From contig JAFZRU010000041.1 of NCBI GenBank assembly GCA_017619755.1, positions 1 through 39,268 of the forward strand: 39,268 bases of DNA, written 5' to 3'. A model generated the notes under the pieces. It did no database searches and had not been told where the DNA came from. It saw nothing but the letters and a program-made list of their open reading frames with translations. Made by a program: the position numbers and the translations under genes. Within the stretch, counting starts at the first letter, position 1. Each line of letters opens with the position of its first letter. Shown piece after piece: positions 2,798 through 27,848 of this stretch. This DNA comes from Prevotella sp. GTDB lineage: Bacteria; Bacteroidota; Bacteroidia; Bacteroidales; Bacteroidaceae.

Positions 2798-5700
2798 ATG
2801 AAAATAAAATCCTTTTTCACCATTATCTTAATGAGTCTTTGGGGTATGACGACAAGAGCACAATCCTCCAGTGACCAAAACGTCATCCTGCCATGGGGCA
2901 GCGAAACACAATGGCAGATGAAGTATTTCTTCAAAGACCACATAGATGACGTGCCACCGCCTGCTGACAATGCTGGCAATCCTTGGTATACCATCGGATA
3001 TGATGATTCTGAATGGGACACGCTGACAGGTCCCATAGGAAGTAATTATTATGATATCAACCAGGGATATGATTGGAATGTCGATTATAGTAGTATCTAT
3101 CTTCGAGGTAGTTTTATCCTTTCAGAAATATCTAACGATTATTATATATTTCAGGTATTAGCAGACGACATTGCCACCGTTTATATCAATGGAGTGAAAG
3201 TGATGAAAGGCTATACTGACGACAACTACGATGACAATAGCAACATTTCAGTCATTTCCAAAGATTTGTTAAGAATAGGTGAAAACACATTGGCTGTTTC
3301 TGTCAGTGATGATGAGGGATTTGCTCGTTGCTTCGATTATACGTTGTTCACTAGCGATAGTCGCCCCCTTGTCTATACTTATCTTGACAATCAAGGTGTG
3401 ATATACAGATTTGATGATAAGACAGAAACCTATACGGTCACTAACCATGAAGGTGACTTTAATGTGAACCTTGTCATTCCCGCCACGATATATGACTACC
3501 CTGTTACGAAAATTGGTGAGGAAGCCTTGGCATGGTGTGAATTGGAATCGATTGTCTTGCCAGAAGGTATCGAGACGTTGGAGAATTATGCTATGGCAGG
3601 TTGCAATCTGAAATCAATCATTATCCCTGCAAGTGTGACCAATATGCATCTTGACGGGGGTAATCCGATTTCGGACAATGCAGGGTTGAAATACATCCAG
3701 GTGGCAGAGGGCAACACCGTTTACGATTCACGCGACAACTGCAATGCCGTCATAGAAACAGCTACCAACACTCTTGTTTCAGGCTGTAAAAACACAGTCA
3801 TCCCACAAAGTGTCACTTCCATCGGTAATGAGGCTTTCTCAGAATGTGGGTTGTCTTTTATAGCCATTCCAGAGAGTGTGACCAGCATAGGGTCTTATGC
3901 TTTTTCCAGCTGGGAGGATTTGAAAAAGGTTTTTGTGGCTTTCTCTCATCCCATTGAAATTGACGAGGATGCTTTCCCAAACTGCTACGAACACATTTTA
4001 TATGTACCTATTGGTAGCAAGGCCGCTTTTATGGCTGCCGAGGTGTGGAAGGATTTTCAACAAATTATCGAGATAGATGAAGAGGAGGTCTTTGCCATCC
4101 GACCTTACGTCGTAATATCTGATGATGATGGCACACTCACTTTTTGTTACGATGGTGAACATATGTCTCGCAATGGAACCGTTTACGGACTTGAGGAAGT
4201 AGATGGCGAGCCTGAATGGTATGGGGAATGGTTTCAAAGCGTTGTTTTTGAACCCTCATTTGCCAAAGTGAGACCAGAACTAACACATAGTTGGCTGCGA
4301 GAAACGGAATTTTGCTCAGTGGAAGGTATGAGATATCTCAACACCTCCGAAACCATCAACGCTGATGCCATGTTCTATTATTCCCACTTTTCGACCAGCA
4401 TAGACTTAAGGAACTTCAATACCTCCAATATGTTGAAGTTTGGACGTATGTTTGAGGGATGTGATTTTTTGGAAACCTTGGACTTGAGCACGTTTGATAT
4501 GAGCAAAGCCAGAGAGACGCATTATATGCTTGCTGACTGTTATAACCTCCGTGTCCTTAAGGTTTCCGCTTCTATGAGTGGTATGGACAATAATGCTTGT
4601 GAAGGTGTGGGTACCCCTGATAGACCTTGTGTGCTCTATGTGCCAGAAGGCTTTGATTTCGGGGGCATCGACACATCGGGCGACTATTTTGTATGGAAAA
4701 GCGGATATTTCACCCTTGGCGACGAAGGCGATAATGAGGTCGTCGTGATAGATGACAATACTTTCTCTGCCCTTACTTTCGAGGGTGTGCGGATGGTGTT
4801 CAAAATCATCGATCCTGTTGCCAAGACGGTGCAGGTGGGCAATGGCACAGTTTCCATCAATCCAAACACGTGGGGTTGTGTCACCATCCCGTCTGAAGTC
4901 AATGGTTACAAGGTCGTGGGAATTGGACCTAATGGTTTTAATGGGTGTTCTCCAAATTTGTCAGAGGTGCTGCTTCCAGAAGGTTTGGTCTTCATTGGCG
5001 AGAATGCCTTCAATGCCTCCTCTATCAATAGCATTCAGATTCCTGAGACGGTTTGTAGTATAGGGGAGAATGCATTCAATGGATGCCCAATAACGGGCAT
5101 CGACATTCCAGAGGGCGTGACGAGCATAGGAAATGATGCTTTTTCCGGTTGCACCTACCTCAAAGTCGTTAATTGCTATAACCCAATCCCCCCGGCATGT
5201 GGCTCAGGTGTTTTTTCTTCCGTTCCCGTTGATGTGTGTAGGCTCTACGTGCCAGAGGGAAGTGAATGGTCATACTCCACAACCTCTCCTTGGAGTGGTT
5301 TTGCTACCATCCGTCCTTTTGTCACGAGCAGCAGTACCAATAGCAACATCATCACTGATGAGGAATGGGCCATTCTATGCACCATCCGTGAGGAGTTGGT
5401 GGCTAATGGTTGGACAACACCATGGAATATGAGTAAGGGTAAATCTTGTGCAACTTCTTTGAAAGGTGTGACGTTGGTAAACGAGCATGTCGTCAAGTTG
5501 GACTTGTCAAGAAACCAGCTCTCAGGAGGGGGGATTACAAGTATGCTCCAATTGCCTTTCTTGAAAGCACTCGACCTCTCCAACAACAACCTTTCGGGTG
5601 ATGTCGCTTCATATTTTTCTGGTGTTATGGAAGGGCAGGTGCCCGCTGCTGCAAGTTTGAAGAGCATCGACCTTTCCCATAACCAGTTGACAGGTGACAT

Positions 5701-6913
5701 CGACCTCGTCACTTCCCGTTTACCTGCCTTGGAGAGTGTCAACCTTTCCTACAACCAGATGACAGGAAACATCGGTCTCTTTGCCTCCCGTTTCACCTCT
5801 CTTGAATTGCTTGATGCTTCCTACAACCATTTGACGGAGGTCAATCCCACCATATCCAGCAAAGTGGCGAATCTTAATCTCACCAACCAAACTCTCGACA
5901 CCACTTTGCATTTCTCATTGCCTCAGATGACCCTGGAAGAAGAGATACCCTCCATACTCATCTATGACCACGCACTCCAACAGTATTTGGATGGCTACAC
6001 TTTAAAATGCAACGCTGGCAACTGCACCTTCCTCCTTGAATATAAGGATGGGAGCCACTCCATCTCGTTAACCTCTTACAACGCCACCTACCGTACGGCA
6101 AAAGGTGATAACCTTGTTGTTACCAGTCAGACAGGTGAAGCAGTCAACTCCATCCTGGGCATGGTTCTCGACTTTGATGATGGAGATGCCAATTTTGACG
6201 GAATGGTGGATGTGCTCGACCTGCAGACCGTCGTCGACTACATCCTCAAGAACTACAAGAAATTTTTCAACTTCACTGCTTCCAATCTGTGGGAGGACAG
6301 TGTCATCAACCTTCAGGATCTCGTGCGTCTGGTCGATGTGCTCTTGGACCTCGACCATACCGCTGGCGCTCCAGCCCACGTACTTGGCACGAATATGGGA
6401 GAAACCGCTGCGCAGGTGTTCGTGACTGATGGTAGCTTGCATCTTTGCTCTACCGTCCCCGTGGCCGCTCTCGACATTCGGATGGACGGCTGTACTTCTG
6501 CCAGTGGCTATGAGGCGTTCTTCGCTTCCCACGGCTTTGACTACCAGACACGCATTCTTACCGACGGCCTCCACCTCGTGGCATGGTCGTTCGGTGGCAC
6601 CCTCCCGGAGGGCGACCACGTTCTTTGCAATGTGGAAGGCGACAATCCCTCACCCATATATGCATGCTTGGCCAACAGCGAAGCAGAACCTATCGCCGTG
6701 ACCCTCGGCGAAAATGCCACACGATTAACAGACCTCCCGCTAGTTGGACAACGCTACAGCATCCTCACCCTCGACGGCCTCAATATGACAGGAGAGACCA
6801 CGGAAGACTTCAAGCAGGTGGCCAGACGGTTGAGGCCCGGAGTGTATATTATAAAGGTATATCTCGCCAACGGAAGTATCAGTACACGCAAAATCACCAT
6901 TGAAGCACATTGA
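2798..6913 (+). CDS. BspA-like multidomain LRR surface protein with dockerin-like module and T9SS sorting domain
   Basis: A 1371-residue exported protein, probably an adhesin or scaffold. Visible order: signal peptide 1-22 (ending TRAQ); beta-sandwich resembling a carbohydrate/galactose-binding domain about 30-185 (DDIATVYINGVKV); BspA-type LRR_5 repeats about 195-420; a DUF285 block about 428-640 ending in a cap with GVGTPDRPC and DTSGDYFVWKSGYF; more LRR_5 repeats 652-840; plant-type LRRs 890-1010 (LDLSRNQLSG, LDLSNNNLSG, IDLSHNQLTG); a dockerin-like pair 1124-1190 (GDANFDGMVDVLDLQ, and a degenerate second half); a cohesin-like beta domain about 1195-1300; and a C-terminal T9SS type-A-like sorting domain (GVYIIKV, STRKITIE). 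BspA-family proteins mediate binding to host proteins or other bacteria. First gene of the cluster; only 3 bases separate it from the next. Confidence 0.85.
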   Translation: MKIKSFFTIILMSLWGMTTRAQSSSDQNVILPWGSETQWQMKYFFKDHIDDVPPPADNAGNPWYTIGYDDSEWDTLTGPIGSNYYDINQGYDWNVDYSSIYLRGSFILSEISNDYYIFQVLADDIATVYINGVKVMKGYTDDNYDDNSNISVISKDLLRIGENTLAVSVSDDEGFARCFDYTLFTSDSRPLVYTYLDNQGVIYRFDDKTETYTVTNHEGDFNVNLVIPATIYDYPVTKIGEEALAWCELESIVLPEGIETLENYAMAGCNLKSIIIPASVTNMHLDGGNPISDNAGLKYIQVAEGNTVYDSRDNCNAVIETATNTLVSGCKNTVIPQSVTSIGNEAFSECGLSFIAIPESVTSIGSYAFSSWEDLKKVFVAFSHPIEIDEDAFPNCYEHILYVPIGSKAAFMAAEVWKDFQQIIEIDEEEVFAIRPYVVISDDDGTLTFCYDGEHMSRNGTVYGLEEVDGEPEWYGEWFQSVVFEPSFAKVRPELTHSWLRETEFCSVEGMRYLNTSETINADAMFYYSHFSTSIDLRNFNTSNMLKFGRMFEGCDFLETLDLSTFDMSKARETHYMLADCYNLRVLKVSASMSGMDNNACEGVGTPDRPCVLYVPEGFDFGGIDTSGDYFVWKSGYFTLGDEGDNEVVVIDDNTFSALTFEGVRMVFKIIDPVAKTVQVGNGTVSINPNTWGCVTIPSEVNGYKVVGIGPNGFNGCSPNLSEVLLPEGLVFIGENAFNASSINSIQIPETVCSIGENAFNGCPITGIDIPEGVTSIGNDAFSGCTYLKVVNCYNPIPPACGSGVFSSVPVDVCRLYVPEGSEWSYSTTSPWSGFATIRPFVTSSSTNSNIITDEEWAILCTIREELVANGWTTPWNMSKGKSCATSLKGVTLVNEHVVKLDLSRNQLSGGGITSMLQLPFLKALDLSNNNLSGDVASYFSGVMEGQVPAAASLKSIDLSHNQLTGDIDLVTSRLPALESVNLSYNQMTGNIGLFASRFTSLELLDASYNHLTEVNPTISSKVANLNLTNQTLDTTLHFSLPQMTLEEEIPSILIYDHALQQYLDGYTLKCNAGNCTFLLEYKDGSHSISLTSYNATYRTAKGDNLVVTSQTGEAVNSILGMVLDFDDGDANFDGMVDVLDLQTVVDYILKNYKKFFNFTASNLWEDSVINLQDLVRLVDVLLDLDHTAGAPAHVLGTNMGETAAQVFVTDGSLHLCSTVPVAALDIRMDGCTSASGYEAFFASHGFDYQTRILTDGLHLVAWSFGGTLPEGDHVLCNVEGDNPSPIYACLANSEAEPIAVTLGENATRLTDLPLVGQRYSILTLDGLNMTGETTEDFKQVARRLRPGVYIIKVYLANGSISTRKITIEAH

Positions 6914-6916
6914 ATC

Positions 6917-9900
6917 ATGGATAAGCATCATATTAAACCTTTCGTATTAGCGTGGCTTCTCGCCCTCGTTTCGCTCACGACGGCGGCACAGAAGAACCGC
7001 CTGACAGTGGATGATGTTCTGCTGTCTGCAGGGGGACAGGCTACCCTGCACGTGGCGATGGACAACACCCAAGACATCGTGGGTGTGCAGTTCACCCTCA
7101 CCCTGCCCGCTGGCTTTTCACTCGACATCCCCTCCCTCGTAAAGACGGAGCGGTTGGCGAACCACAGGGTGTCCCCCAGGAAGACGGGCAACAACGAATA
7201 TATGTTCATCGTCTATTCCTCAGCCAACCAACCCATCTCGTCCATCGGAGGAGAACTCTTCGCCATCACCTTGCAAGCCGCCAGCAGTGTCGCTGGGGGA
7301 AAAACATATGACATGGTTCTCACCGATGTGGTGATGAGCCTGCGGGGCGGGGAGAACGTGGTGGAGGAGACCGTGGCTGGCCACATTGTGGTGAAAAACC
7401 TGCCCGACCTCCATGTGGTGGCTGTTGACTGTTCCGAAGCCGTCGCGGGGATGAACCTCACCATCCAATGGACTGTACGCAACGATGGAGGAGATACCGA
7501 ATCACAGTCGTGGAAAGACTATGTATGGCTTACACCCGATATCTTGGGAGGCAGCAACGTCACGGGGCGGAGGCTGCTCGCTGTGGTGGACAACCCCGTG
7601 GGACTCAACGCAGGAGCATCCTATGAGAACAGTGTCACCGTCACGTTGCCAGAACGTATGTATGGTCTCTACGACATCGTTGTGTGCACTGACATGTATT
7701 GCGTGGATGACATCGACTTGACACCTGCTGGAGGCACGTTGCCAAGGCCCTACGAACCTGAGACCGCCGATTATGGATTCCTATACGCACAACGAGTGTC
7801 ATCAGACTTGGTGGCGGAAGAGGGAGAAAGTGGTGGAAGAAGTGACAACTTCTTCTATCAGCAAATCGATATCGGCGTGCCACCATTGCCCGACCTCGTG
7901 GTGAGGAGTGTGGTGATTGATAGTCTTTATATCCCTGATACATATTCATATATAGTTAAAGAAGGAAGTAAGTCTCGCGGTGGCAAAGTTAACACGGGAT
8001 TTTTGGTTGACTTGGTTTACTCATATATGGGATTTTATGTGGGTGCTTCCATTGCTAATCAAGGTGACAAGGCCATAGAGAAAACCAAGATTTGGAACAT
8101 TGTCTATATCTCGCACTCGCCTGACCCCAATGCAGAACCTCTTCGTCCTATAGAATGGAGCAACATCTTCATTTCATTGTCGCCAGGAGACAGTACATAT
8201 TGGTCGAAAAGGGTGTATGTCCCTCTGGATTGGTATGGTGACACTTATTTCCATGTGCAGGTCGATGCCGAGGATGCCGTTTACGAACTTGCCAACACCG
8301 CCAACAATTGGGGATGTAGCGAAAAAATGGATGTTCTTCTCACTCCAGGAGCCGACTTGGAAGTGACCAGTGTCATAATGCCAAATAAGGTCACTGCTGG
8401 CGAGCCTTTCAAATTCACCTATGAGGTGGATAACAAGGGGCCGGGTGAACCCAACGAGAAAGCGTGGGATGACAAGGTGTATGCCACGCAGCACGGAAGT
8501 CCGCTGACCGATGACTCTCCCTGCATCGCCACCATCGCCTATGGAAAGAGAACTTCAGGAAGCAGTTCCGGTTCTGGGTCTTCTGGTACCACCTATGGGT
8601 TGGTCCATTCTGAATCGGGTGGATCAAGTGGTGGTGCTATTCAAGTACTACCTTTCACTGGTTATTCAAAAGACGTTGATGTGACCATGAAAGATTTTGC
8701 CCCAGGCACCTATGATATATATTTGATGTTGGATGCCGACAATAAAGTATTCGAATATGAAGGCGAGGATAACAACACATACGGGCCTATCACTATGCAG
8801 GTGGTGCAGGCTGACCTCGCCCCCCAACTGCTCACCGTGTCGGCGGACACTCTGGCCTCCAATGCCAAGGTGGCTTTTTCATGGAAGGTGACCAATCAGG
8901 GCGAGGGAGAGTTGAAGAACGTGAAACTCACCGACCGTTTCTATGCCGCCAAGAATGCCAATGGGGACAATGCCATTCTTTTAGGTCAAGTCACCAATAT
9001 GGTGACCATCGCTGCGGGAGTAGAGAAGACGCTGATGGCCAACCTCACCATCCCCTCCAAAGAAAACTTGTCCGGCTATCGATACATCTATGTAACCACT
9101 AATGTCGACAACCGCATCGAAGAAGTCAGCACCGCCAACAACAAGAGCAACATGATGAGGAAATATTTTCTCTATACCGACGAGACACTACCCACACCTA
9201 TCGACAGTCGGCCCAACCTCGTGGTGAATACACTCACTGCACCAGCCACCGTTACACCTGGAGGACAAGTGACGCTCTCCTATATGGTCACCAACAGCGG
9301 ACTGTCGGCGGTAGGCAAGAACGTGCTACAAGAGGTCTTCGTGTCAAAGAGTTCGGTATTCTCCCGTTCCGAATCCACGCCATGCACCCTCTCTTCGCAG
9401 CAGGCAGCCCTCAACGGCTTGGGCAGTGGGAAAAAGAAAACCATTCATGTGACGGCAATTATACCCGAAAATGTAATGGGTGGCGATTGTTATCTCCATA
9501 TCGTCTTAAATCGTGATGGTATGCTCAGCGAAACTTACACCGATGATGACAACGCTGCTGCGCGTACCTATATATACGGCAACCTTCCTGACCTTGTTAT
9601 TCAGGACATCCAAGTGCCAGCAAACGTCACCACTTCCACTCCCGCGGAGGTGACATGGACGCTCTGTAACAACGGAACTTGGAAGGCTGATGCCAATACC
9701 ATACTGGTCTATCTCTCGTCCGACGGGACGCAGCAAGACATATTGCTGGCCACCCTTGCCACAAGCGAACTGTCCAATGGAGCGACTGTAAGCATGCGCA
9801 CCACCCTCAACCTGCCCGATGACAAGGATGGTGAACAGTACCTCCTCTTCGTCGTCAATCCCAAAAAGTCGATGGAAGAACTGTCCATCGCTAACAATAC

Positions 9901-11632
9901 AGCAAAGGCTGCACTCCATGTGGTGCAAGCCCCATTGTCCGACCTGCAAATCTCCCTCCTTTCAGTGGAGGGACGTTGCCGAGGCGGCGACACCATCACT
10001 GTGACAGCCAAGGTGAGCAACATAGGCGATGACATCACCCATGTGGACAAATGGGCCGATGCGGCATACATCACCAACGGGTATACACTCGACACCAACA
10101 CCGACCGCTCTTTGGGTAGCAAGGCCCATAATGGCAATTTGCCTGTCGGCAAAGACTACACCTTCTCCCTCCGTTTGAGACTTCCCGACAACCTCAGTGG
10201 CTACTATGTATTGCACATCTCTGCCGATCCCACTGGTGCCATGGTGGATAAGAATCGTTCGAACAACACTGCACGTCAGACCCTTATGGTTGAAGGCAGG
10301 CAGGACGCACCCGCCGACCTTGAGGTCTCAAGGGTGACCACCGATGCCCACATCACCGCCGGGGCGCCCGTCACCATCGACTATGAGGTAAGCAATGTCG
10401 GTTATTTCGAGGCCGAAGGAACGTTGCACGATGCCATCTACCTCTCCACTGATGACCGATGGGATGTCAATGACCTCTTTGTGGGGACAGTGTCGGGTGA
10501 AGTGAACATCCTCCCCGGACAGGCCCTAACCAGACACGCCACGGGGCGCATCGCCAATGTCGTGGAAGGTAATTATCACATCATTGTGAAAACCAACGCT
10601 ACCCAAGGCATCTTTGAAAGTGACTATGACAATAACGACGGGGTGCAGACATCGACCAGTGCCATTGAGTTTGCCTATCTCCAACCTGGTACCTCGGCGA
10701 CCGTCAACACCGTCGGTTACTACAAGGTTGCCATGCAGCAGGAAGAGGCGAAATCCACGCTCGCCCTGCGCCTGCAAAGTCCAGACAATGCACAAGCGGG
10801 ACTCTATGTAGCCTACGAGGCGGTGCCTTCCACGGCTCGTTACGACTATGGCACAACAGATTGGAGATCCAATGACCAGCAGATCATCCTCCCGCATACG
10901 CAGGAAGGCACCTACTATGTGTTGGCACAGGCCAATGCCTTCAGCGGGCAAGGGCTGTATGACTTCACACTTGACGAAGGGGAAAGTTCCTCCTCGCAGG
11001 TAACAATGACACTCACGGCCGAGGAGATTCCCTTTGGTGCCTCACGTCTTTCCATCACTGAAGGTGGCAAGGATGGATGGGTCTCCACCGGCATCCAAGG
11101 AGCCTTGCTCGACAGCATCATGGATTTCCGACTGATAAAAGACGACAAGGTCATTCCTGTGGAACGCCTCGTCTTTAACAACAGTTCGTCCACCGATGTC
11201 ACCTTTAACTTGGACAAGGCCGATATTGGAACCTACGACTTGCTCTCTGAATTACCCGATGGCACTCAAGCCACCCTTAAGGATGCTTTCAAGGTGGTGC
11301 CAGCCACCAGTGTGGGGTTGGGCGTGAAAATCGAAGCACCCCACTGGGTGCGCATGGAAGAGTCTGTACCTGTCACCATTTCCTATGCCAATAGCGGGAA
11401 GACCGATATTGTCCTGAGAGCTTTCCTCTTTGCCTCCGAAGATGGCGACTTTGCCACCACCACCGATGGCCTTAAAACCAACCCACAGAACATAATATGC
11501 CTCTATCCCGATGGTGAACAAGATGTTAGGGGATGCATCACCATACCGCCTGGCAAGCAAGGGGTGATGAGGTGCTTCTTCAAACAATATGTGGTTGGAG
11601 CCAGTTACCTTTACCTTTATGTAGTCAAATAA
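6917..11632 (+). CDS. Giant secreted protein: cohesin-like domain plus about eight CARDB repeats
   Basis: A 1571-residue exported protein of unknown function. Signal peptide 1-24 (ending TTAAQ). Residues 25-160 resemble a cohesin fold (VGVQFTLTLPAGFSLD, then GGELFAITLQ). About eight CARDB (cell-adhesion-related Ig-like) repeats follow, starting near 163, 325, 481, 634, 770, 890, 1010 and 1133. Each opens with (P/A)DL.V..V and carries V.N.G...... W, e.g. ADLEVSRVTT. Residues about 1253-1360 look like a pre-peptidase-C-type beta-sandwich and 1360-1571 like IPT/Ig strands including ISYANSGKTDIVLRAFLF. There is no T9SS tail and no catalytic motif. A serine/glycine-rich linker sits near residues 550-575. 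It lies between the dockerin-bearing BspA gene (3 bases upstream) and the RHS gene (10 bases downstream), so it is almost certainly co-transcribed. A scaffold role is inferred, not shown. Confidence 0.8.
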   Translation: MDKHHIKPFVLAWLLALVSLTTAAQKNRLTVDDVLLSAGGQATLHVAMDNTQDIVGVQFTLTLPAGFSLDIPSLVKTERLANHRVSPRKTGNNEYMFIVYSSANQPISSIGGELFAITLQAASSVAGGKTYDMVLTDVVMSLRGGENVVEETVAGHIVVKNLPDLHVVAVDCSEAVAGMNLTIQWTVRNDGGDTESQSWKDYVWLTPDILGGSNVTGRRLLAVVDNPVGLNAGASYENSVTVTLPERMYGLYDIVVCTDMYCVDDIDLTPAGGTLPRPYEPETADYGFLYAQRVSSDLVAEEGESGGRSDNFFYQQIDIGVPPLPDLVVRSVVIDSLYIPDTYSYIVKEGSKSRGGKVNTGFLVDLVYSYMGFYVGASIANQGDKAIEKTKIWNIVYISHSPDPNAEPLRPIEWSNIFISLSPGDSTYWSKRVYVPLDWYGDTYFHVQVDAEDAVYELANTANNWGCSEKMDVLLTPGADLEVTSVIMPNKVTAGEPFKFTYEVDNKGPGEPNEKAWDDKVYATQHGSPLTDDSPCIATIAYGKRTSGSSSGSGSSGTTYGLVHSESGGSSGGAIQVLPFTGYSKDVDVTMKDFAPGTYDIYLMLDADNKVFEYEGEDNNTYGPITMQVVQADLAPQLLTVSADTLASNAKVAFSWKVTNQGEGELKNVKLTDRFYAAKNANGDNAILLGQVTNMVTIAAGVEKTLMANLTIPSKENLSGYRYIYVTTNVDNRIEEVSTANNKSNMMRKYFLYTDETLPTPIDSRPNLVVNTLTAPATVTPGGQVTLSYMVTNSGLSAVGKNVLQEVFVSKSSVFSRSESTPCTLSSQQAALNGLGSGKKKTIHVTAIIPENVMGGDCYLHIVLNRDGMLSETYTDDDNAAARTYIYGNLPDLVIQDIQVPANVTTSTPAEVTWTLCNNGTWKADANTILVYLSSDGTQQDILLATLATSELSNGATVSMRTTLNLPDDKDGEQYLLFVVNPKKSMEELSIANNTAKAALHVVQAPLSDLQISLLSVEGRCRGGDTITVTAKVSNIGDDITHVDKWADAAYITNGYTLDTNTDRSLGSKAHNGNLPVGKDYTFSLRLRLPDNLSGYYVLHISADPTGAMVDKNRSNNTARQTLMVEGRQDAPADLEVSRVTTDAHITAGAPVTIDYEVSNVGYFEAEGTLHDAIYLSTDDRWDVNDLFVGTVSGEVNILPGQALTRHATGRIANVVEGNYHIIVKTNATQGIFESDYDNNDGVQTSTSAIEFAYLQPGTSATVNTVGYYKVAMQQEEAKSTLALRLQSPDNAQAGLYVAYEAVPSTARYDYGTTDWRSNDQQIILPHTQEGTYYVLAQANAFSGQGLYDFTLDEGESSSSQVTMTLTAEEIPFGASRLSITEGGKDGWVSTGIQGALLDSIMDFRLIKDDKVIPVERLVFNNSSSTDVTFNLDKADIGTYDLLSELPDGTQATLKDAFKVVPATSVGLGVKIEAPHWVRMEESVPVTISYANSGKTDIVLRAFLFASEDGDFATTTDGLKTNPQNIICLYPDGEQDVRGCITIPPGKQGVMRCFFKQYVVGASYLYLYVVK

Positions 11633-11642
11633 CCCAAGAATT

Positions 11643-14600: not shown

Positions 14601-15929
14601 AAGTCGTTCGTCTATGACCTCGTGGGTAATCGCAAAAAGGCGACGGTGGATGGAAACACCACCTCCTACGCGGTCAACAACGTGAATGCCTACACCAGCC
14701 TTACCGGTTATGGAGCGACGACACCGCAATATGATGACAATGGCAACCTGACAAATGATGGTGCGCACCGCTATCTCTACGATGTCAACAACCGCCTCGT
14801 AGCACTTGATGGCAATAGCGCCACCTACAAATATGACGCCTTGGGTAGACGAGTGGCCAAGGTCGTGGGGGGAAGGACAACACGCTATGCATACGCTGGC
14901 AACCAGATGATTGAGGAATATGAAAATAATTCACTTATGGATTCCTACATCTATGGCGAAGACATCGACGAGACGTTGATGATGATGAAAGGGAGCAACG
15001 CCTATTACTACCACGCCGACCATTTAGGTTCCACAAGAGCATTGACCAACAACAAGGGCAATGTGTTGGAACGTATCAACTACGACCCCTTTGGCGCACC
15101 AAGGTTCTTCAATGCGAATGGAACAGCCATCAACGCCTCGGCCATCGGCAACAACATCCTTTTCACCGGCAGGGAGTATGATATGGAGTCAAACAACTAC
15201 TATTTCAGGGCCAGAGCCATGCACCCGGGGTTGGGCAGGTTCATGCAGAAAGACCCATTAGGATATGTCGATGGGATGAACGACTATGCGTATGTGAATA
15301 ATAGCGTGATGGCGCTGAAGGATCCGATGGGGAAAGGGTGCGTGGCTATCAGACCTTTAGATCAACAAATACTTAAAAATTTCCCCCCCACAACTGGTAA
15401 ATATAAGCATATAGTTATGGAACATATACTTGCTACAAGATTTGGTGGTTTTAGCGTAATTTATATGGCTTATATGATATATAATAAGAATCCCTTTGAT
15501 AAAAAGGATAATAGTAGATTAGGACATAAAGCTTTATGGTTTACAACTCCTCAAAAAATAACATTAAAGAACAATACATATGTTATTAATAACATTAGTT
15601 ATGGTGACTATCCCAATAATAATAATTATAATACTCTTATAAATGATCCTCTTGCTAATTCATATAAACCTATGACAGATTGGAATTTTAAACCCATTTG
15701 GTTTGATGATGGTATTATGAAAGAAGTATTATCAGATCCCAATAATTGGCCTGAAAATTATGGAGATTATTCTTTAGGAAGTCATAATTGTCAAGATTGG
15801 GTCAATGATATGATGGATAAGTATGATCAATTGGTAGATGAAAAGTTGAAAAATGGTGATTTAAACAAAGATAAATATAATAAGAAGAAGGAAAAAGGGC
15901 AGAAACAATGCAAACAACTTAATTATTGA
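11643..15929 (+). CDS. Secreted RHS/YD-repeat protein with variable C-terminal tip (polymorphic-toxin-like)
   Basis: A 1428-residue RHS protein. Signal peptide 1-19 (ending SHAQ). An N-terminal RHS-associated region (20-170) is followed by dozens of YD repeats (YTYDxxGxL type) to about residue 1110, which in this family form a hollow beta-shell. The RHS core follows: HADHLGSTRA near 1124, then FTGREYD...YYFRARAM, RFMQKDPLGY and ALKDPMG (Asp at 1227). After that the sequence changes abruptly into an unrelated 198-residue tip encoded by clearly AT-rich DNA from about 15345. The tip contains LGHKALWF (His1295) and GSHNCQDWV (Cys1383), the His-then-NC pattern of permuted papain-like LRAT/PPPDE folds, and a Lys-rich end. 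In known systems RHS tips are toxins exchanged by recombination; here that role is inferred. Unlike type VI RHS effectors it carries its own signal peptide. No immunity gene is obvious; the next gene starts 4 bases later. Confidence 0.85.
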   Translation: MRKTIFLVILAFAMLVSHAQNIIHPKIAGPNGLMVNSYNGVLFFARTEMRTQTSQMPMQLAFYYNSSANTLNYGYGLGFSLGYEMSCTVAENGDVMVSTGDGRSDTYQRFGDQYQAPPGVFSTLTRISDYAYVLTTKEGMRYQFGSQFSITLPYVRKRVQLASTYNRTHPYVRKKVDCSPSQSGSDDEGTSPASLFIKLTAIEDRHGNRTRFTYDEDRLVKIEDAVEHTVNLTYTNGLLTRTTSTFHPGAFTYAYDGNQRLIKVVDNMGNATLYGYDKANHINAITDANGHTTRITYNASGMVSRIKTEVSDKSIRYDDDKTVFVDYEEPKSLYSYYRWDEYGRVVEKVGLCCGIQATLEYDENDNVVRQTDANGHANTYTYDEKGNMLTATDPLGNSQRYAYDEWSNLTSYQDANGNTYRFTYNDKGDLTALNGPEGLAYTVVNNDKGWPLTVTDPLNNVTRLTYNDDGTTSQVMDAVGNVTQYAYDGQGRLVSVTSPAGNSFSLAYDATGRLTNLTDPLGHRTALSHDKTGKVVRVTDAKNQVTAYTYDAMGRMVTRTDPMRGVYKVKYDGRGNVTAITDELGRTERMDYDERNKPVSKTNGAGEVTRFDHDAAGNLISVFLPNGNTLAFEYDETNQVVRVSDDTGTLIRYTLDANGNTLTETDGEGRTTSYAYDGLSRVISKTLPSGATTNYSYDANFNLLSTTDALGNATTYAYDALNRLVSLTDALNATTHLSYDAEGNLVKATDALGHATSFTYDALGQTTAITFANGRSLQYAYDEVGNLVEETDRAGRKTKMVYDALGRLLSATHSDKSSERYAYDAVGQLMTATNANANVQLTYDLAGRLTSETSGGKTTAYAYDVAAGTRTITYPGGTTVVERRNGRGLLASVTRNGAELATFDYNGAGDRSRMTYANGVVTDYTYDDNGWLAAVNANKSVMQLAMTYDAAGNMTGRTDGLDNSRSETYGYDAISQLTSFNRSDTHKSFVYDLVGNRKKATVDGNTTSYAVNNVNAYTSLTGYGATTPQYDDNGNLTNDGAHRYLYDVNNRLVALDGNSATYKYDALGRRVAKVVGGRTTRYAYAGNQMIEEYENNSLMDSYIYGEDIDETLMMMKGSNAYYYHADHLGSTRALTNNKGNVLERINYDPFGAPRFFNANGTAINASAIGNNILFTGREYDMESNNYYFRARAMHPGLGRFMQKDPLGYVDGMNDYAYVNNSVMALKDPMGKGCVAIRPLDQQILKNFPPTTGKYKHIVMEHILATRFGGFSVIYMAYMIYNKNPFDKKDNSRLGHKALWFTTPQKITLKNNTYVINNISYGDYPNNNNYNTLINDPLANSYKPMTDWNFKPIWFDDGIMKEVLSDPNNWPENYGDYSLGSHNCQDWVNDMMDKYDQLVDEKLKNGDLNKDKYNKKKEKGQKQCKQLNY

Positions 15930-15933
15930 AGTT

Positions 15934-18753
15934 ATGAAAAAAATTCTTTTGCTCATCATATTATGTCTTGCCATTCAAGCGCAAGCCCAGAATCAATGTA
16001 CAATGGGTGATGACTGTCCCCCCGAGGATCCAGAGCCTTTGACCACCCCTTTGGGTGATACCTCGCTGATGAGTGTCACCTCATACGACCCCAACGAGTT
16101 GTTAGGTCCTGTTGGCGTGGACTCCGTTCGCTGGGTGAGCATCAACGATATCTTGCGTTACACCATCATGTTTGAGAACGACCCGGATTTTGCCACCGCC
16201 CCGGCGCAGACGGTGGACATCCGTTTCGACTTCCCCACCAGAGCATTGATGCAAGGCTTCGGCATTGGTAGTTATAGTTTCTCCAATATGTCATTTGTGG
16301 TGGACAGACCCTCCAATGCCTACCAAACTCGCATCAACCTACGCGACACTTTGGGCTACTGTGTGGACTTGATTGCTGGTCTCGATATGAAACGCCGACA
16401 AGGGTTCTGGCATTTCTACACCATCGACCCTGCCACGGGTCATGCACCCACCGATATCTATACGGGAATGCTGCCGGTGAATGACTCCACCCATGTGGGC
16501 GAAGGCATGGTGACCTTCCAACTCACCCCTGACGAAGAAATGCATACCGGCGACACCATCAGCATCTTTGCCAAAATCCTCTTCGACCAAAACGACACCA
16601 TTCCCACCAACCGATGGTGCGTGACTGTGGATGCTGGCGCACCCACCAGCAAGGTGACGGCAACCCCAGACCCTAACGATGACAGCCTTTACCTCCTGCA
16701 TATCGAGGCGAGCGACGACGAGGGCGGCTCGGGCCTCAGCCACTTCCTACTCTATCAAGCCAACATCAACGGCGCATACGAGGAGGTGGACACCTGCCAG
16801 GTGGATGAAGTTGTCGTCTTCCCCGTGGAGAAAGGGCGACAATACCGGCTTTTCACCATCGCTGTGGACCGCGTTGGCAACAGAGAACCGTTGAAGACTG
16901 AACCCGACGTGGTGATCAATTTCAACCTCGCGCCCACCGACCTTGTGCTCAGTGACTCCATCTTCCAGGATGACTTGGAGCAAGGTGGGTTTATCGGCAA
17001 ACTCTCCACCGTGGATACGGAGGAGAACACCGCCTGCGTCTATGAACTGGCGGAGGGCGAGGGTGCCATTCACAACGACCTATTCATAGTGGAGAATGAC
17101 GAGTTGCGCATCAACAACTCCTTCAAATGTGCCGAGGACAGCGTCTTCCTCGTACGCATCAAGACCACCGACGACGGAGGGATGACATTTGCAAAACCAT
17201 TCACCCTCCACCTCCAACATGTGTTGCAACAACCCATGCCCGACTCCGTAGAGGTGACCATCTGTCAAGGTGACGCCTATGACTTCCACGGCAAGACCTA
17301 CGACAAGGCGGGGCTTTACACCTGCACCGTGAGCAACGACTACCAATGTGACAGCATTTACGTGCTGAAACTCAGCGTGCTCAAACCGCTCGACGCGCCT
17401 TCCGTCACCGTGGAGGGCACACACACCCTCGTCTCGTCGGCTGAGACCGGCAACCAATGGTTTGATGAGGAGGGCAGACCCATAGAAGGGGCCGACGGCC
17501 AGCGTTTCACACCCACGGAGGAAGGCGTGTATTATGTGGCAGCCTCCAATGGCGGTTGTTTCTCACAGCCTTCGACAGCCTATCGGGTCATCCTCTCCGA
17601 CGACACACGGCTCACCCTGAACTTGAAAAGCGGGTGGAACTGGTTTTCCTCCAACCTGGCCGACACGGAGTGGCAGGATGCACGTCGCTTCCTACAACCC
17701 ATCACGGAAAGCACCGACCGCCTGGTGGGGATGACTGACGAACTCATCAACGACCCTGTCTATGGACTGACAGGAGGGTTGGACAACATCACGCCAACCA
17801 ACGGCTATAAATTGCACGTCACAGAGGATGTCAACCACACCTGGGAGGGTACGGCGGCAAGTCCTAGTGCGACGCCCGTCACACTCCATGAGGGATGGAA
17901 CTGGATCGGCTACGTACCGATGGGTGAGCGGACGGTGGCCGATGCATTGCAACTGTTGCAGCCTACTGAAAACGACATCATCAAGGGAGTAGATGACTTC
18001 GCCACTTTCAGCAACGGGAAATGGACCGGTACCCTCACGGCCTTGAGACCAGGGGAGGGTTTCCTTTACTACTCCGGGAAAGGTGGGTCGTTCGCCTATC
18101 CAAATTCCAATGCGTATCCCGTCATCGCGGAATCTGCCAGCCATATTAAACAGCATCAAGAGGGAGGATGGACATACGACGCACACCGCCATGCAGACAA
18201 CGTGACGCTCATCGGCCAACCTCTCTTGGACGGCTTCCCCGTGGTGGAGGGTGCTTTTTCCGTGGCGGCCTTCATCGACGGTGAATGCCGGGGCATTGGA
18301 AGATATGTGGAGGGGAGGCTATTTATGACCATCCACGGCGACCTCGCACAGCCAGGCACCATCTCCTTCAAGGCGGTGGAGAACGCCACGGGAAGACCTT
18401 TTGACGTGGAGGAGACCCTCACCTTCGGCAACCAACGTTATGGCACCTTGGCCAGCCCTGTGAAGTTGCATTTGCGCAGCACCACCGACGACGTGGCCAC
18501 AACGGATGCCAACAACCGCTACGTGGTCTATCCACGACCTTTGCACAACAGACTCTTCATCCAGGGCGACACCCGCAACATACTCTCGGTGAACGTCATC
18601 TCCACAGGGGGAGAGACCATGCTCAAGACGCAAGGATATCCGGAGGAGGGCATCAACGTGAGCGGACTGAAACCTGATGTCTATGTCGTGGCCATTGTCC
18701 TGAATCACGGTGCTACATGGTATGAAAAAGTGGTCAAGATCCTGCAAGAATAG
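15934..18753 (+). CDS. Secreted multidomain protein: DPN domain, cadherin-like domain, GWNW repeats, T9SS sorting domain
   Basis: A 939-residue exported protein. Signal peptide 1-19 (ending QAQAQ). Residues about 45-215 match the DPND-type beta-sandwich seen beside CARDB-like repeats in other secreted proteins (SYDPNELLGPVG, TIMFENDPDFATAPAQ). An Ig/Fn3-like segment follows at about 230-320 (DDEGGSGLSHFLLY), then a cadherin-like domain at about 330-430, a TICQGDAYDFHGKTY module at 440-480, an Ig-like module at 490-550, and two GWNW modules (GWNWFSSN, GWNWIGYVP) in 560-740. A domain at about 745-860 contains SVAAFIDGECRG and resembles the N-terminal domain of the 18825 gene product. The C terminus (868-939) is a T9SS type-A-like sorting domain (YVVYPRPLHNRLFI ... 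ISTGGETML ... DVYVVAIV). Located immediately after the RHS gene, where an immunity gene would normally be, but it does not look like one. Confidence 0.8.
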   Translation: MKKILLLIILCLAIQAQAQNQCTMGDDCPPEDPEPLTTPLGDTSLMSVTSYDPNELLGPVGVDSVRWVSINDILRYTIMFENDPDFATAPAQTVDIRFDFPTRALMQGFGIGSYSFSNMSFVVDRPSNAYQTRINLRDTLGYCVDLIAGLDMKRRQGFWHFYTIDPATGHAPTDIYTGMLPVNDSTHVGEGMVTFQLTPDEEMHTGDTISIFAKILFDQNDTIPTNRWCVTVDAGAPTSKVTATPDPNDDSLYLLHIEASDDEGGSGLSHFLLYQANINGAYEEVDTCQVDEVVVFPVEKGRQYRLFTIAVDRVGNREPLKTEPDVVINFNLAPTDLVLSDSIFQDDLEQGGFIGKLSTVDTEENTACVYELAEGEGAIHNDLFIVENDELRINNSFKCAEDSVFLVRIKTTDDGGMTFAKPFTLHLQHVLQQPMPDSVEVTICQGDAYDFHGKTYDKAGLYTCTVSNDYQCDSIYVLKLSVLKPLDAPSVTVEGTHTLVSSAETGNQWFDEEGRPIEGADGQRFTPTEEGVYYVAASNGGCFSQPSTAYRVILSDDTRLTLNLKSGWNWFSSNLADTEWQDARRFLQPITESTDRLVGMTDELINDPVYGLTGGLDNITPTNGYKLHVTEDVNHTWEGTAASPSATPVTLHEGWNWIGYVPMGERTVADALQLLQPTENDIIKGVDDFATFSNGKWTGTLTALRPGEGFLYYSGKGGSFAYPNSNAYPVIAESASHIKQHQEGGWTYDAHRHADNVTLIGQPLLDGFPVVEGAFSVAAFIDGECRGIGRYVEGRLFMTIHGDLAQPGTISFKAVENATGRPFDVEETLTFGNQRYGTLASPVKLHLRSTTDDVATTDANNRYVVYPRPLHNRLFIQGDTRNILSVNVISTGGETMLKTQGYPEEGINVSGLKPDVYVVAIVLNHGATWYEKVVKILQE

Positions 18754-18792
18754 TTGGGATTTATCCCGAATGAGTTGGTTTTTATCCCGAAT
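18754..18792 (+). repeat. Two tandem 18-bp units between clustered genes
   Basis: TTGGGATTTATCCCGAAT at 18754-18771 is followed by a copy with two changes at 18775-18792, period 21; a decayed third unit may follow to about 18812. The first copy includes the palindrome GGGATttATCCC. It begins directly after the stop of the upstream gene. It could be a regulator site or processing hairpin upstream of the 18825 gene; the function is unknown. Confidence 0.6.
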
Positions 18793-18824
18793 TGGAGAAT
18801 TTTTTTTGAATTTCTTTACCGACT

Positions 18825-21800
18825 ATGGACGTTTTTAGAAAATTGTTGATAGTAGTGGCTTGCCTGATGGGAGCCACGACAGTCTTGGCGCAAGAGCATT
18901 GGACCTGCGACATCAGCCGTTACGAATATGATATGACCGTTTTCTTTCATCTCTATGACAATGACCAAAGGGTGTCGGGGGATGACTATGAAGTGGCTGC
19001 TTTCTGCGGAGAGGAATGCCGGGGCGTGGCGAAGGTGCAGTCGGTGGCCTTTTTAGGGAAAGAGGAACGTTATTATTACCTGCGCGTGAGAAGCAACATC
19101 GCCTCGGGCGAGGAAATACACTTCAAAGTGTATAAGAAGTCGGCCAATATGGAGGTTGATGCCCAGGAGTCGTTCACCTTCCATGCACAAGAGGCCGTGG
19201 GGCGCCCCAGCAGCCCATTCATCATCCACATAGGTGATGATGCCGACCGCGAGGCATACGTCGTCCTCTCGCCCGACAGCACAACATTGACATTCTATTA
19301 TGATGGAAAGAAAACGTCACATGAAGGAACGACTTATGACCTGAACACAGGAAATACTTTTCCAGATTGGAATCCTGCTGCATCGTTGATACAGCACGTA
19401 GAGTTCACTCCTTCCTTCGCTGCCGCCAGACCAGTATCCACAAGTGGATGGTTCTATAAAATGGGGTCCATCACGGAGATTGGAGGATTACAATACCTCA
19501 ACACGTCGGAAGTGACCACTATGTATGCCATGTTTACCAGGTGTTCTCAGCTGACTACCCTCAATTTGAACTATTTCGACACGTCTAACGTGACCAATAT
19601 GGCTTTTATGTTTAGCGTATGTGAACAATTGACTTCCCTCGACTTGAGCCATTTTGACACGTCTAACGTGACCAATATGAGTTATATGTTCCAATCTTGC
19701 ACAAGTCTGTCAACTCTTGACCTTAGCCATTTCAACACGTCGAACGTGACCAATATGAGTTGGATGTTTTATTATTGTTATAATTTGACCTCTCTCAATT
19801 TGAGCGATTTCGACACTTCGAAAGTAAAGAATATGAGTTGGATGTTTGGTGCTTGTCAGCAATTGACCTCTCTCGACGTGAGTCATTTTGATACCTCGAG
19901 CGTGACCGATATGAGTGCAATGTTTTATTATTGCAATTATTTGCCCTCCCTTGATGTGAGCCATTTCGACACGTCAAACGTGAACAAAATGGGGAGTATG
20001 TTTCGTGGTTGCAAAAAATTGTCGTCCCTTGATGTGAGCCATTTCAATACGTCGAAAGCGGAAAGTATGTTAGGTATGTTTAGTGGTTGTCAACAATTGA
20101 CCTCCCTCGATTTGAACCATTTCGACACGTCTAAAGTGAAAGATGTGGCAGATATGTTTGGAGGTTGTACAAGATTGTCAACTCTTGACCTAAGCAACTT
20201 CATATTTAACGAGAATGTGAGAACAACAAATCTGCTTTATAACTGCTCCTCTCTTAAATATTTGATAATTTCCTCTACATCCTCATCAATAGATGAAAAC
20301 TGTTGCAAAGGTGTCGGCACTGCCTCCTCCCCCTGCACCATCATCGCTCCAGATGGCTTCAATTTCGGAGTGGATACTTCCGGCGACTTTTTCCAGTGGA
20401 AGAACGGCTACTTCAAACTTGTGAAAGGGGAGGCATACGTCATCCTCTCACCCGACAGTACTACGCTGACTTTCTATTATGATGATATGAAAGCGACACG
20501 TGAGGGAACGGCTTATGGATTGAACACCGGGTATTCTTATCCAGGATGGCGAAATGCCGCCTCATCGATTCTGCATGTGGTGTTCACCCCTTCCTTCTCA
20601 CTTGCCCAACCTGTGTCAACAGCATCATGGTTCAGTCTAATGGAATCCATCACGGAGATAGAAGGATTGCAATACCTCAACACGTCGGAAGTGACCAATA
20701 TGTATTGTATGTTCTATCATTGTTACAATCTGCAAAGCCTTGACTTAAGCCATTTCAACACAGCAAAAGCTACTGATATACATATGATGTTTGATTCTTG
20801 CAAAAGTCTGACAAGCCTCGACCTCAGTAGTTTCGACACAGGAAATGTAACAAATACCAGTCAGATGTTCTATTATTGCACCAATCTGACAAGTCTTGAT
20901 ATCAGCCATTTCAATACTTCGAATGTGACTGATATGATGAACATGTTTTCTCGTTGTAGCAATCTAACAACCATTGATCTCAGTAGTTTCGACACAAGAA
21001 AAGTTACCACGATGTCGCAGATGTTCCAATATTGCACCAGTTTGACAGATATTGACGTGAGCAATTTCGACACATCCAACGTTATTTATATGAGTTTTAT
21101 GTTCTGTGGTTGCGAGAGTTTGACAAGTCTTGACTTGAGTCATTTTAACACATCAAATGTAACAAGCATGCTTGGCATGTTTGAAGAATGCTATAACTTA
21201 ACAAGCATAGACTTGAGTCATTTCGACACTTCGAATGTGACACGTATGGATCGAATGTTTGGAAGCTGTATAAAATTGACTTCCATTGACGTAAGCCATT
21301 TCGACACCTCGAAAGTGACCCGTATGGAGGGTATGTTTTCTATTTGCCAAAGTTTGTCATCACTCGACGTGAGCAATTTCGACACCTCTAATGTTACTCA
21401 CATTTATTCGATGTTTAGGTATTGTATCAATTTGTCATCCCTTGACCTTGGCAACTTCACATTCAATACAGGAATGGATACCCAATACTTACTTTATAAT
21501 TGCACCTCGCTCAAAACCTTGACCATTCCCTCCACCTCGACGTTAATCAATGATAATGCTTGCAATAGGGTCGGCACCGCCTCCTCCCCCTGCACCATCA
21601 TCGCCCCCGAGGGCTTTGACTTTGGCGTGGATACCTCTGGCAAATACTTCATTTGGAAGAGTGGCTATTTCAATTTGGGTTCCGCCTTCCTGCTGGGCGA
21701 TGTCAACCACGACGGCGCGGTGAACATCACTGATGTGATGTCGGTGGTGAACTATATCCTTGGTCAAATGCCCGTTGTGTTCTTCATAGAGAATGCCGAT

Positions 21801-22385
21801 ATGAACGGGGATGGCAGCATCAACATCACCGATGTCATGCTCATCGTGGATGCCATCCTCCACGGTAATGCGGCTATGGTGACGGAGCATATGCGCGAAC
21901 AACTGATGGATCACTTGGCGGTGAAGCCCGATGCCAATGGCTATGTCATCTGTTTGGACAACCACGAGCCATACACCGCTCTGCAGATGGATGTGGTGTT
22001 GCCTGAAGGAATGGAGTTGACTGCAATCAAACTGGAGAACAGCCGTTCCGACAACCACAAGGCATTTCGCGAGAGGGTGGCTGGCAACCACTACCGTGTC
22101 GTCGTGTATTCCCAAGAGGGAAGTGAGATAAAGGGTTCGGAGGGTGAACTCCTGCAACTGGTGACCCAAGGCAAACGACACGGAGGTATGGCTGTCAAGG
22201 ATGTTATGCTCACCAACGCGCAATTGGTAACGGTGGTCATCCCCGAAGCATCTATAGTGACGGGCATCGGTTCACCCGCCATCGAGGATGATGACTCGCC
22301 ATCGTTCACCATACAAGGAATTCCTGCCGAAAAACACAAACGTGGCGTCGTTGTGAAGAAGGGAAGCAAGTACGCTGTGAAATAA
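18825..22385 (+). CDS. BspA-family surface protein with two DUF285 repeat blocks and a dockerin-like module
   Basis: A 1186-residue exported protein, probably adhesive. Signal peptide 1-22 (ending VLAQ). The N-terminal domain (23-140) contains EVAAFCGEECRG, matching a domain of the preceding protein. Two homologous modules follow, about 145-540 and 545-950. Each has an opening cap (VLSPDSTTLTFYYD), a run of 26-residue DUF285 units of the form DTSNVTNM..MF..C..L.SLDLSHF (about nine in the first, ten in the second), and a closing cap with GVGTASSPCTIIAP and DTSG. Then come a dockerin-like pair at 957-1010 (GDVNHDGAVNITDV and MNGDGSINITDV), a cohesin-like beta domain (ALQMDVVLPEGMELTAI, GELLQLV) and a short tail GVVVKKGSKYAVK resembling abbreviated Bacteroidales sorting tails. 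The 71-base gap upstream could allow separate control, though no good -7 box is seen. A terminator follows at 22392. Confidence 0.85.
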   Translation: MDVFRKLLIVVACLMGATTVLAQEHWTCDISRYEYDMTVFFHLYDNDQRVSGDDYEVAAFCGEECRGVAKVQSVAFLGKEERYYYLRVRSNIASGEEIHFKVYKKSANMEVDAQESFTFHAQEAVGRPSSPFIIHIGDDADREAYVVLSPDSTTLTFYYDGKKTSHEGTTYDLNTGNTFPDWNPAASLIQHVEFTPSFAAARPVSTSGWFYKMGSITEIGGLQYLNTSEVTTMYAMFTRCSQLTTLNLNYFDTSNVTNMAFMFSVCEQLTSLDLSHFDTSNVTNMSYMFQSCTSLSTLDLSHFNTSNVTNMSWMFYYCYNLTSLNLSDFDTSKVKNMSWMFGACQQLTSLDVSHFDTSSVTDMSAMFYYCNYLPSLDVSHFDTSNVNKMGSMFRGCKKLSSLDVSHFNTSKAESMLGMFSGCQQLTSLDLNHFDTSKVKDVADMFGGCTRLSTLDLSNFIFNENVRTTNLLYNCSSLKYLIISSTSSSIDENCCKGVGTASSPCTIIAPDGFNFGVDTSGDFFQWKNGYFKLVKGEAYVILSPDSTTLTFYYDDMKATREGTAYGLNTGYSYPGWRNAASSILHVVFTPSFSLAQPVSTASWFSLMESITEIEGLQYLNTSEVTNMYCMFYHCYNLQSLDLSHFNTAKATDIHMMFDSCKSLTSLDLSSFDTGNVTNTSQMFYYCTNLTSLDISHFNTSNVTDMMNMFSRCSNLTTIDLSSFDTRKVTTMSQMFQYCTSLTDIDVSNFDTSNVIYMSFMFCGCESLTSLDLSHFNTSNVTSMLGMFEECYNLTSIDLSHFDTSNVTRMDRMFGSCIKLTSIDVSHFDTSKVTRMEGMFSICQSLSSLDVSNFDTSNVTHIYSMFRYCINLSSLDLGNFTFNTGMDTQYLLYNCTSLKTLTIPSTSTLINDNACNRVGTASSPCTIIAPEGFDFGVDTSGKYFIWKSGYFNLGSAFLLGDVNHDGAVNITDVMSVVNYILGQMPVVFFIENADMNGDGSINITDVMLIVDAILHGNAAMVTEHMREQLMDHLAVKPDANGYVICLDNHEPYTALQMDVVLPEGMELTAIKLENSRSDNHKAFRERVAGNHYRVVVYSQEGSEIKGSEGELLQLVTQGKRHGGMAVKDVMLTNAQLVTVVIPEASIVTGIGSPAIEDDDSPSFTIQGIPAEKHKRGVVVKKGSKYAVK

Positions 22386-22391: not shown

Positions 22392-22421
22392 ATGGAGTTC
22401 ACTTGAAAAAGTGGACTCCAT
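22392..22421 (+). terminator. Intrinsic terminator ending the secreted-protein cluster
   Basis: A 13-base stem (22392-22404 with 22409-22421, one G-U pair) and a GAAA loop, followed by a T-rich run beginning near 22430. It lies 7 bases after the stop of the 18825-22385 gene. Confidence 0.85.
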
Positions 22422-23523: not shown

Positions 23524-23559
23524 TTTTTATCGTTACTTAGGAAATATTACTAATATGTT

Positions 23560-23742
23560 GAGATGAGTATGCAAGATATATTTTAACACGAATTACCACG
23601 CGCTCGACTTTGTCGCTTCGCTCGTCGAAGAATTATCCATTAATTTATTGATTTCCAAAATTATATGACTAATTATATGGTAATTATATGTTAAAAGTTT
23701 ATACATTAGAATTAACACGAATATCTGCAAACATTTAAAGTG
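23560..23742 (-). repeat. Upstream repeat element, copy A (before aguB)
   Basis: About 185 bases that, read on the minus strand toward aguB, align with 25779-25963 read on the plus strand toward the nuclease gene. Shared landmarks in order are ACTTTAAATGTTTG, GTGTTAATTC, AACATATAATTACCAT, AATTAATGGATAATT, GCGAAGCGACAAAGTCGAG, GTGTTAAAATA and TTGCATAC. The last word lies about 50 bases before each start codon, so a shared promoter or leader is possible; the -7 match is weak. The core GCGACaaaGTCG is palindromic. Confidence 0.8.
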
Positions 23743-23750
23743 TCAGTTCA

Positions 23751-26990: not shown

Positions 26991-27004
26991 TTTTCTGAAA
27001 GAGG

Positions 27005-27037
27005 ACAACCGATTTTGCTGATTTTACTGAAAAGAGC
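27005..27037 (+). repeat. 33-bp direct repeat, left copy
   Basis: Matches 28909-28940 with three substitutions and one gap; a shorter third version overlaps the nuclease stop at 26983-27004. The two copies bracket the 27077-28916 genes. Confidence 0.6.
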
Positions 27038-27076
27038 TGTATTCCCATTTTGGTTTATAATGAATAAGAGGTGACT

Positions 27077-27493: not shown

Positions 27494-27613
27494 TGTTATG
27501 ACATCAATCCACTTTAAAGGTTAATTATCATAAAAGGAGCATAATTGATAAGAGATAATAGAGAATATTCTTAAGGAAATTGAAACTTTAAAAGGAATTG
27601 TAAATCTGTAGAT

Positions 27614-27796: not shown

Positions 27797-27848
27797 TGAG
27801 ACCCAATCTTATTGTGATAATATTTACTAATAATTCATTGAAAAGGTA

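Follow-up and report, generated by a model that had tools for sequence, protein, structure and literature searches.

How might a Bacteroidota cell display a large RHS protein on its surface, and which neighbouring genes could help it to do so? The question is raised by a 39,268-nucleotide stretch of DNA from an uncultured Prevotella sp. (contig JAFZRU010000041.1; hereafter the window), which makes up the whole of contig C53 in a draft genome of 3.7 Mb and 85.88% completeness. Five same-strand open reading frames (ORFs), W1 to W5, fill positions 2798-22385 (Table 1), and the third encodes the RHS protein. A preliminary description of the sequence had given the first three gaps between the genes as 3, 10 and 4 bases and placed a terminator at the end of the run. 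Both hold: the fourth gap is 71 bases, and the strong hairpin after W5 (-19.4 kcal/mol, z -5.83) was matched by none of 200 shuffles. That description also gave all five proteins signal peptides. The N-termini do look Sec-like, but this was judged by eye for W1 and W5 and by a loose rule for W2-W4, one that also flags some RHS proteins of the type VI secretion system (T6SS). A simple version of the Bacteroidetes promoter pattern was not found upstream of W1, and a PADLOC scan gave no match for W1-W5. With about even confidence, we propose that W2, W3 and W4 represent a giant cell-surface protein split into three genes, and that all five genes would specify one surface assembly.

The order of the five genes recurs elsewhere. 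Searches with W3 and with W4 across 251 genomes of the family revealed equivalents of W1-W5, in identical order, in a genome of another genus (G134, contig C63), with gaps of 8, 15, 40 and 9 bases if the start of W4 is taken at 4933. The preliminary description had named conserved order as its own test, and the order is conserved. Identity to G134 is 36% in the C-terminal half of W1, 40% over the full length of W2, 54% over residues 1-1230 of W3, 52% for W4 (52-54% when a further genome, G145, is included) and 46% for the first ~137 amino acids (aa) of W5, the only stretch of W5 conserved in G134 and G145. Between the two copies, divergence is seen in the RHS tip, the front of W1 and most of W5, and the genes around them differ by eye as well. 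In G145, a W4-W5 pair stands at the start of a short contig that begins just before W4. G017 encodes a chain that combines W4-like parts with a type IX secretion system (T9SS) tail, and a W5-type start comes after it. Of 399 family genomes searched, two had a W3-type RHS protein (expect value, E ≤ 1e-60), one of them being the window's. Among 19 genomes of the genus of G134, only G134 itself and a distant RHS in G218 were found, and 17 genomes of the genus of G145 held no RHS at E ≤ 1e-30, empty results that are no proof of absence. A scan of named genomes with W4 returned four loci and no close full-length relative. Judged from sequence, the recurrence of the five-gene order in another genus is more than chance.

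Relatives in which the parts form one chain suggest how W2, W3 and W4 belong together. W4 matched 27 plasmid records, mainly via DUF7619; several of these proteins bear the name CARDB, and one is called a YD repeat protein. Nine plasmid loci were fetched (L160-L168), three of them cut at the chain start (L161, L162 and L166). A single 4202-aa protein of Nostoc sp. HK-01 (BBD63171.1) carries CARDB (12 stretches), DUF6531, RHS, Rhs core, VWD, DUF7619 and RTX repeats in this order. W2-like and W4-like parts also share one chain in Gloeothece, Terrarubrum and Hymenobacter; the portions fetched, which for the first two are cut at the chain start, showed no RHS. The Hymenobacter chain runs from CARDB to DUF7619 and a T9SS tail match below cut-off. 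In none of five more records found with W3 (four cyanobacterial, one Thiodictyon) are all the parts united.

Giant proteins within the family add to this picture. W2 matched 20 of 251 genomes at E ≤ 1e-15, at 19 places besides the window and G134; 11 were examined (L069, L140-L149) and 8 left. A W2-like start and a W4-like end are joined in one chain in 9 of the 11 giants, which is not a frequency because most were picked for a W4-like part in the W2-matching frame. The gene directly 5′ of the giant, which played no role in picking them, ends in a W1-like part in all 11 (E 1.6e-6 to 9e-25), with gaps of -4 to 16 bases in ten and 140 bases in one. After the giant, the next gene lies on the opposite strand in G217, and in G139 the contig ends there. 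The centres of the giants are poorly conserved: of three scanned, that in G217 holds an alpha/beta hydrolase, and the other two gave no match. A 3088-aa giant in L069 (2144-11410) has a W2-like start, an alpha/beta hydrolase centre and a W4-like end. Since W2-like starts and W4-like ends flank a variable centre, W2 and W4 would be the two ends of a chain in which RHS occupies the variable position.

Table 1. Features of the five-gene run in the window
Feature	Position	Strand	Description
W1	2798..6913	+	predicted secreted LRR_5 (BspA-type) protein, 1371 aa; dockerin-like C-terminal part; T9SS-like tail below cut-off at 6755-6901
W2	6917..11632	+	predicted secreted CARDB protein, 1571 aa; weak cohesin-like N-terminus ~7001-7390; no sorting-tail match
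W3	11643..15929	+	predicted secreted RHS/YD-repeat protein, 1428 aa; DUF6531 ~11742-11963; Rhs core ~15081-15332
W3 variable tip	15333..15926	+	198 aa, GC 0.286; no convincing relative in the collections searched
W4	15934..18753	+	predicted secreted DUF7619 protein, 939 aa; C-terminal T9SS sorting domain 18526-18738, near cut-off
W5	18825..22385	+	predicted secreted modular adhesin-like protein, 1186 aa; N-terminal domain common to relatives ~18894-19244; DUF285/PARCEL repeats; dockerin ~21693-21857
Terminator-like hairpin	~22392..22421	+	3′ of W5

W3 is an RHS/YD-repeat protein, as had been stated (PF05593, 1.6e-125; Rhs core model TIGR03696, 62 bits against a cut-off of 32.5). It holds DUF6531, RHS repeats and the Rhs core, and by sequence it has an Rhs shell and core (best PDB match 6.9e-62); the match to the teneurin YD-shell is partial (51.9 bits). 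A sharp drop in GC, absent from the preliminary description, marks the border between Rhs core and tip: W3 goes from 0.546 to 0.286, its G134 homologue from 0.517 to 0.357. The W3 tip falls in the lowest 0.3% of 591-base segments of the window. Identity between the two proteins collapses from ~55% to ~20% just past the Rhs core, near residue 1231. More broadly, the tip has a lower GC than the shell in 22 of 25 RHS genes examined (both cassettes counted; the exceptions are L095, L110 and L115). These features make exchange of tips between copies of the W3 shell likely, the comparison resting on the only two copies known.

The W3 tip had no match in Pfam, the PDB, plasmids, phages or viral contigs, and a single one in PHROGs (E 0.21). 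Weak matches in two genomes besides its own, among 393 order-level genomes, proved on reading to be unrelated frames. A histidine and a cysteine in the tip (LGHKALWF, HNCQDW) may hint at a papain-like fold. Directly 3′ of the RHS gene, neither the window nor G134 has an immunity-like gene; the next gene in both is W4. The tip is bordered by the motifs DPLG and DPMG, which can be likened to the pair of DPLGL motifs that PMC8636562 describes in Rhs1.

We asked which of the proteins could be anchored by type IX secretion. The preliminary description had called the T9SS tails clear. In W4, the tail scored 17.8 bits in the protein scan (model TIGR04183, cut-off 23), 19.9 with the Pfam tail model (cut-off 27) and 23.6 in the genome search, the last over 23. 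The tails of its homologues pass the cut-off (43.5 bits in G134, 28.3 in G145), so W4 is well supported as a predicted T9SS type A cargo. The same assignment is weakly supported for W1, whose tail reached 15.7 and 20.6 bits, both under 23. No C-terminal match to TIGR04183 was found for W2, W3 or W5 in the protein scan; an 11.4-bit match within W3 in the genome search is not C-terminal. The tails are therefore not clear: that of W4 gains its support by way of its homologues, that of W1 stays under the cut-off, and W5 has none. The genome encodes SprA (2563.6 bits) and a PorU-type sortase (996.3 bits), both over cut-off. A T9SS-tailed protein directly after RHS in both copies, together with these two genes, makes a link of the cassette to type IX secretion plausible and speaks for the T9SS-linked RHS assembly that had been suggested; against it, the tail match of the window's W4 is near the cut-off.

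The remaining domains are those of adhesins. As described earlier, W2 contains CARDB repeats (8 stretches in domain scans); its weak cohesin-like start had gone unmentioned. Most of W2, used as a query, had no match in the PDB. W1 and W5 had been presented as two BspA scaffolds with dockerin-like modules. LRR_5 repeats in W1 and a clear dockerin in W5 (1.1e-12) agree with this, but W5 consists mainly of DUF285/PARCEL repeats, and the dockerin of W1 is indirect, resting on similarity to W5 and a match below cut-off in the G134 homologue (1.7e-4). The bodies of W5-type proteins vary, with PARCEL repeats in the window, InlB-type repeats in G134, MBG in G145 and dockerin in G017. Overall, the earlier observations were partly confirmed, and their interpretation is partly supported.

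A model that accommodates these data is that what can elsewhere be one giant chain would comprise a CARDB stalk, a central module and an anchor made of DUF7619 and a sorting tail. Here, the central module would be an RHS shell made as a separate protein, and therefore its tip would lie at a free C-terminus and be exchangeable. All five proteins would enter the periplasm by Sec. W4, and perhaps W1, would then pass through the T9SS translocon by means of its tail and be fixed at the surface. Since W2 and W3 lack a tail and W4 has the best supported one, we infer that W2 and W3 form a complex with W4 and would most likely be exported, or held, in trans through this association. W1 and W5, with their dockerin-type modules, would join as adhesin-like partners. 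Contact would prompt the Rhs core protease to release the tip, which we infer would act on a neighbouring cell. Because both copies lack an immunity-like gene after RHS, sibling competition seems less likely than a target that is non-kin or eukaryotic.

Several findings weigh against reading W2-W4 as a split giant with a releasable tip. The cohesin-like match at the start of W2 (0.0026; 18.4 bits) is below its cut-off of 24.1, and the tail of the window's W4 exceeds the cut-off in one of three scans. CARDB, RHS and DUF7619 are united in one of the nine plasmid loci (L160, Nostoc HK-01), and the 11 family giants showed no RHS; W2 is similar to them mostly in its first ~250 residues. The W1-like ends hold dockerin-type modules, which are common in these genomes, so this similarity may be partly generic. 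A W5-type gene follows the giant in one of nine cases with the downstream side fetched. Just two complete cassettes were found, both in drafts ~86% complete. In the G134 homologue, the first Asp motif is DSLM, making self-cleavage there doubtful. Finally, no activity or toxin-family match was identified for the tip, and the missing immunity-like gene directly after RHS weakens its reading as a toxin.

Because of these last two points, a purely adhesive role is a serious rival, although we consider it unlikely. The assembly would then be structural, with RHS as an adhesin or matrix module and the tip as a ligand-binding, non-toxin end. The companions are of adhesin type (CARDB, LRR and PARCEL, with InlB-type and MBG repeats in W5 relatives), and in the one-chain Nostoc form a VWD domain follows the Rhs core. 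However, a tip that differs between copies, with GC falling steeply at the edge of the Rhs core, is typical of polymorphic toxins, and the tip has a lower GC than the shell in 22 of 25 RHS genes, the two cassettes among them.

Other RHS genes of the family bear on whether the RHS protein is instead a classical toxin. The W3 search matched RHS in 53 genomes; RHS regions were fetched from 37 and their neighbours classed by rule. Several regions belong to the T6SS type, their neighbours being VgrG-like or repeated. For nineteen Sec-type RHS genes the upstream neighbour was aligned, and 16 of these 19 neighbours match the T9SS tail model at E ≤ 0.01. A lone YD-type motif was read in 16 of the 19, directly after the signal peptide in 14 (degenerate in L073 and L074) and near the C-terminus in two (L111 and L112). 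Small signal-peptide genes with one YD-type motif, directly 5′ of a Sec-type RHS gene, are seen at L073 7270-7686 and L074 11455-11871 and as upstream neighbours in L110, L114-L118 and L120-L125. Such small lone-YD genes are possible trans-acting sorting partners. At four other loci (L089, L090, L094 and L095), the downstream neighbour has a YD-repeat match near its start, with no small gene between; one of the four has a T9SS match below cut-off.

The two arrangements differ in what follows RHS. At loci with an upstream partner, a small gene lies directly after RHS in 17 of 18, a count that leaves out L116 (contig end) and takes L121 as a miss despite an overlapping 173-aa ORF; these small genes presumably give immunity. 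At the six downstream-partner loci (the window, G134, L089, L090, L094 and L095), the gene directly after RHS is the partner, which in L095 is only 150 aa. On contig C21 of the window's own genome (L070, 2520-8474), two ORFs of 562 and 524 aa with an Rhs-core match precede three others (308, 178 and 273 aa), a run that looks like an orphan tip/immunity array. In L092-L093 (G226), start or end sequences are common to several RHS ORFs, and repeated ORFs of 161 and 166 aa lie between them.

Both the small genes after RHS and the C21 run, like a low-GC tip that differs between the two copies, would fit a classical antibacterial RHS polymorphic toxin that has landed by chance in an adhesin operon and whose immunity gene lies elsewhere in the genome. 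We regard this as improbable, as no small gene follows W3 or its G134 homologue; W4 does, at 4 and ~40 bases. Since W4 is conserved while the tip is not, W4 is not a tip-specific immunity protein. That unrelated secreted genes were brought together by chance or by the draft assembly, with no joint function, would agree with the rarity of W3-type RHS genes (two genomes, one of them the window's own), but is hardly credible given the same order in another genus between differing flanks and the one-chain relatives.

Returning to the split giant, we tentatively suggest a broader scheme, which we hold to be somewhat doubtful: Bacteroidota may display RHS cocoons via type IX secretion, a neighbouring gene providing the sorting tail in trans. 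This could take two forms. In one, a small T9SS-tailed partner carries a lone YD strand, which may slot into the RHS shell. In the other, a CARDB/RHS/DUF7619 giant is split, with the tail on the third protein and the tip exchangeable without an immunity gene. The conserved T9SS-tailed neighbour offers a concrete proposal for RHS delivery in Bacteroidota and, if true, the lone-YD partner would be a new means of linking very large folded cargo to a secretion signal.

The rest of the window holds other genes. A GH28 family gene (1233-2657) lies immediately 5′ of W1. At 22642-24779, a carbon-nitrogen hydrolase gene adjoins one of the Porphyromonas-type peptidyl-arginine deiminase family, which we take to be an agmatine-to-putrescine pair. 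GC is low (0.355-0.401) at 27001-30000, a possibly acquired segment with an LRR_5 protein and a DUF4143 ATPase. On the opposite strand, 32776-35652 encodes a further large protein with Big_2 and dockerin domains.

How does the locus compare with known systems? By sequence, T6SS Rhs effectors share the Rhs shell and core. W3 differs in its Sec-like signal peptide; domain scans of W1-W6 found no PAAR or VgrG, and TssC was not found in the 86% complete draft genome, with a model that may not see Bacteroidales T6SS (of 14 control genomes, only E. coli matched). On these three grounds, T6SS delivery of W3 was rejected. The same scans of W1-W6 gave no TcA/TcB partner domains of Tc/ABC toxins. Bacterial teneurin-like proteins resemble W3 in their RHS/YD shell and variable end, and CARDB repeats can precede the shell within a single chain (PMC6425310). 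According to the accessible text of PMC13018210, an extra gene follows almost all of them, with immunity shown in one case, and their delivery remains to be elucidated. W3 differs from the proteins described in these portions of the two papers in being a separate protein with a partial YD-shell match and no extra gene after it. Nostoc HK-01 BBD63171.1 has the domain order of W2-W3-W4, but in a single chain that terminates with RTX repeats rather than with a T9SS tail.

Two further systems are known from Bacteroidota. TANFOR polymorphic toxins are secreted Bacteroidetes proteins with a variable C-terminal domain and an enrichment of T9SS-tailed proteins nearby, as given in the available part of PMC7073777. 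The predicted antibacterial ones often have an immunity gene there, whereas none follows W3; no TANFOR-named match was found in W1-W5 in general domain scans, whose libraries may hold no such model. In Porphyromonas gingivalis, variable-end RHS proteins lie beside a T9SS-cargo gene (PGN_1816-1825, with PGN_1817 as the cargo gene), and the accessible sections of PMC6775972 place this gene upstream of the largest Rhs gene and suggest a mechanistic linkage. There, unlike at the present locus, the cargo gene precedes Rhs and toxin/immunity pairs are assumed, and these sections mention no CARDB/DUF7619 partner. The preliminary description knew of no account of a T9SS-linked assembly displaying an RHS effector, but in view of these two papers a link between RHS and T9SS is not undescribed. 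Among the literature matches listed, titles and abstract openings named neither a split CARDB-RHS-DUF7619 operon nor lone-YD T9SS partners, preprints and most subscription papers being outside that scope. A linkage between RHS and T9SS is therefore already known as a proposal for P. gingivalis (PMC6775972, in the part available); new here are the split cassette, the lack of an immunity-like gene after its RHS gene, and the small T9SS-tailed upstream partners, most of which carry one YD motif.

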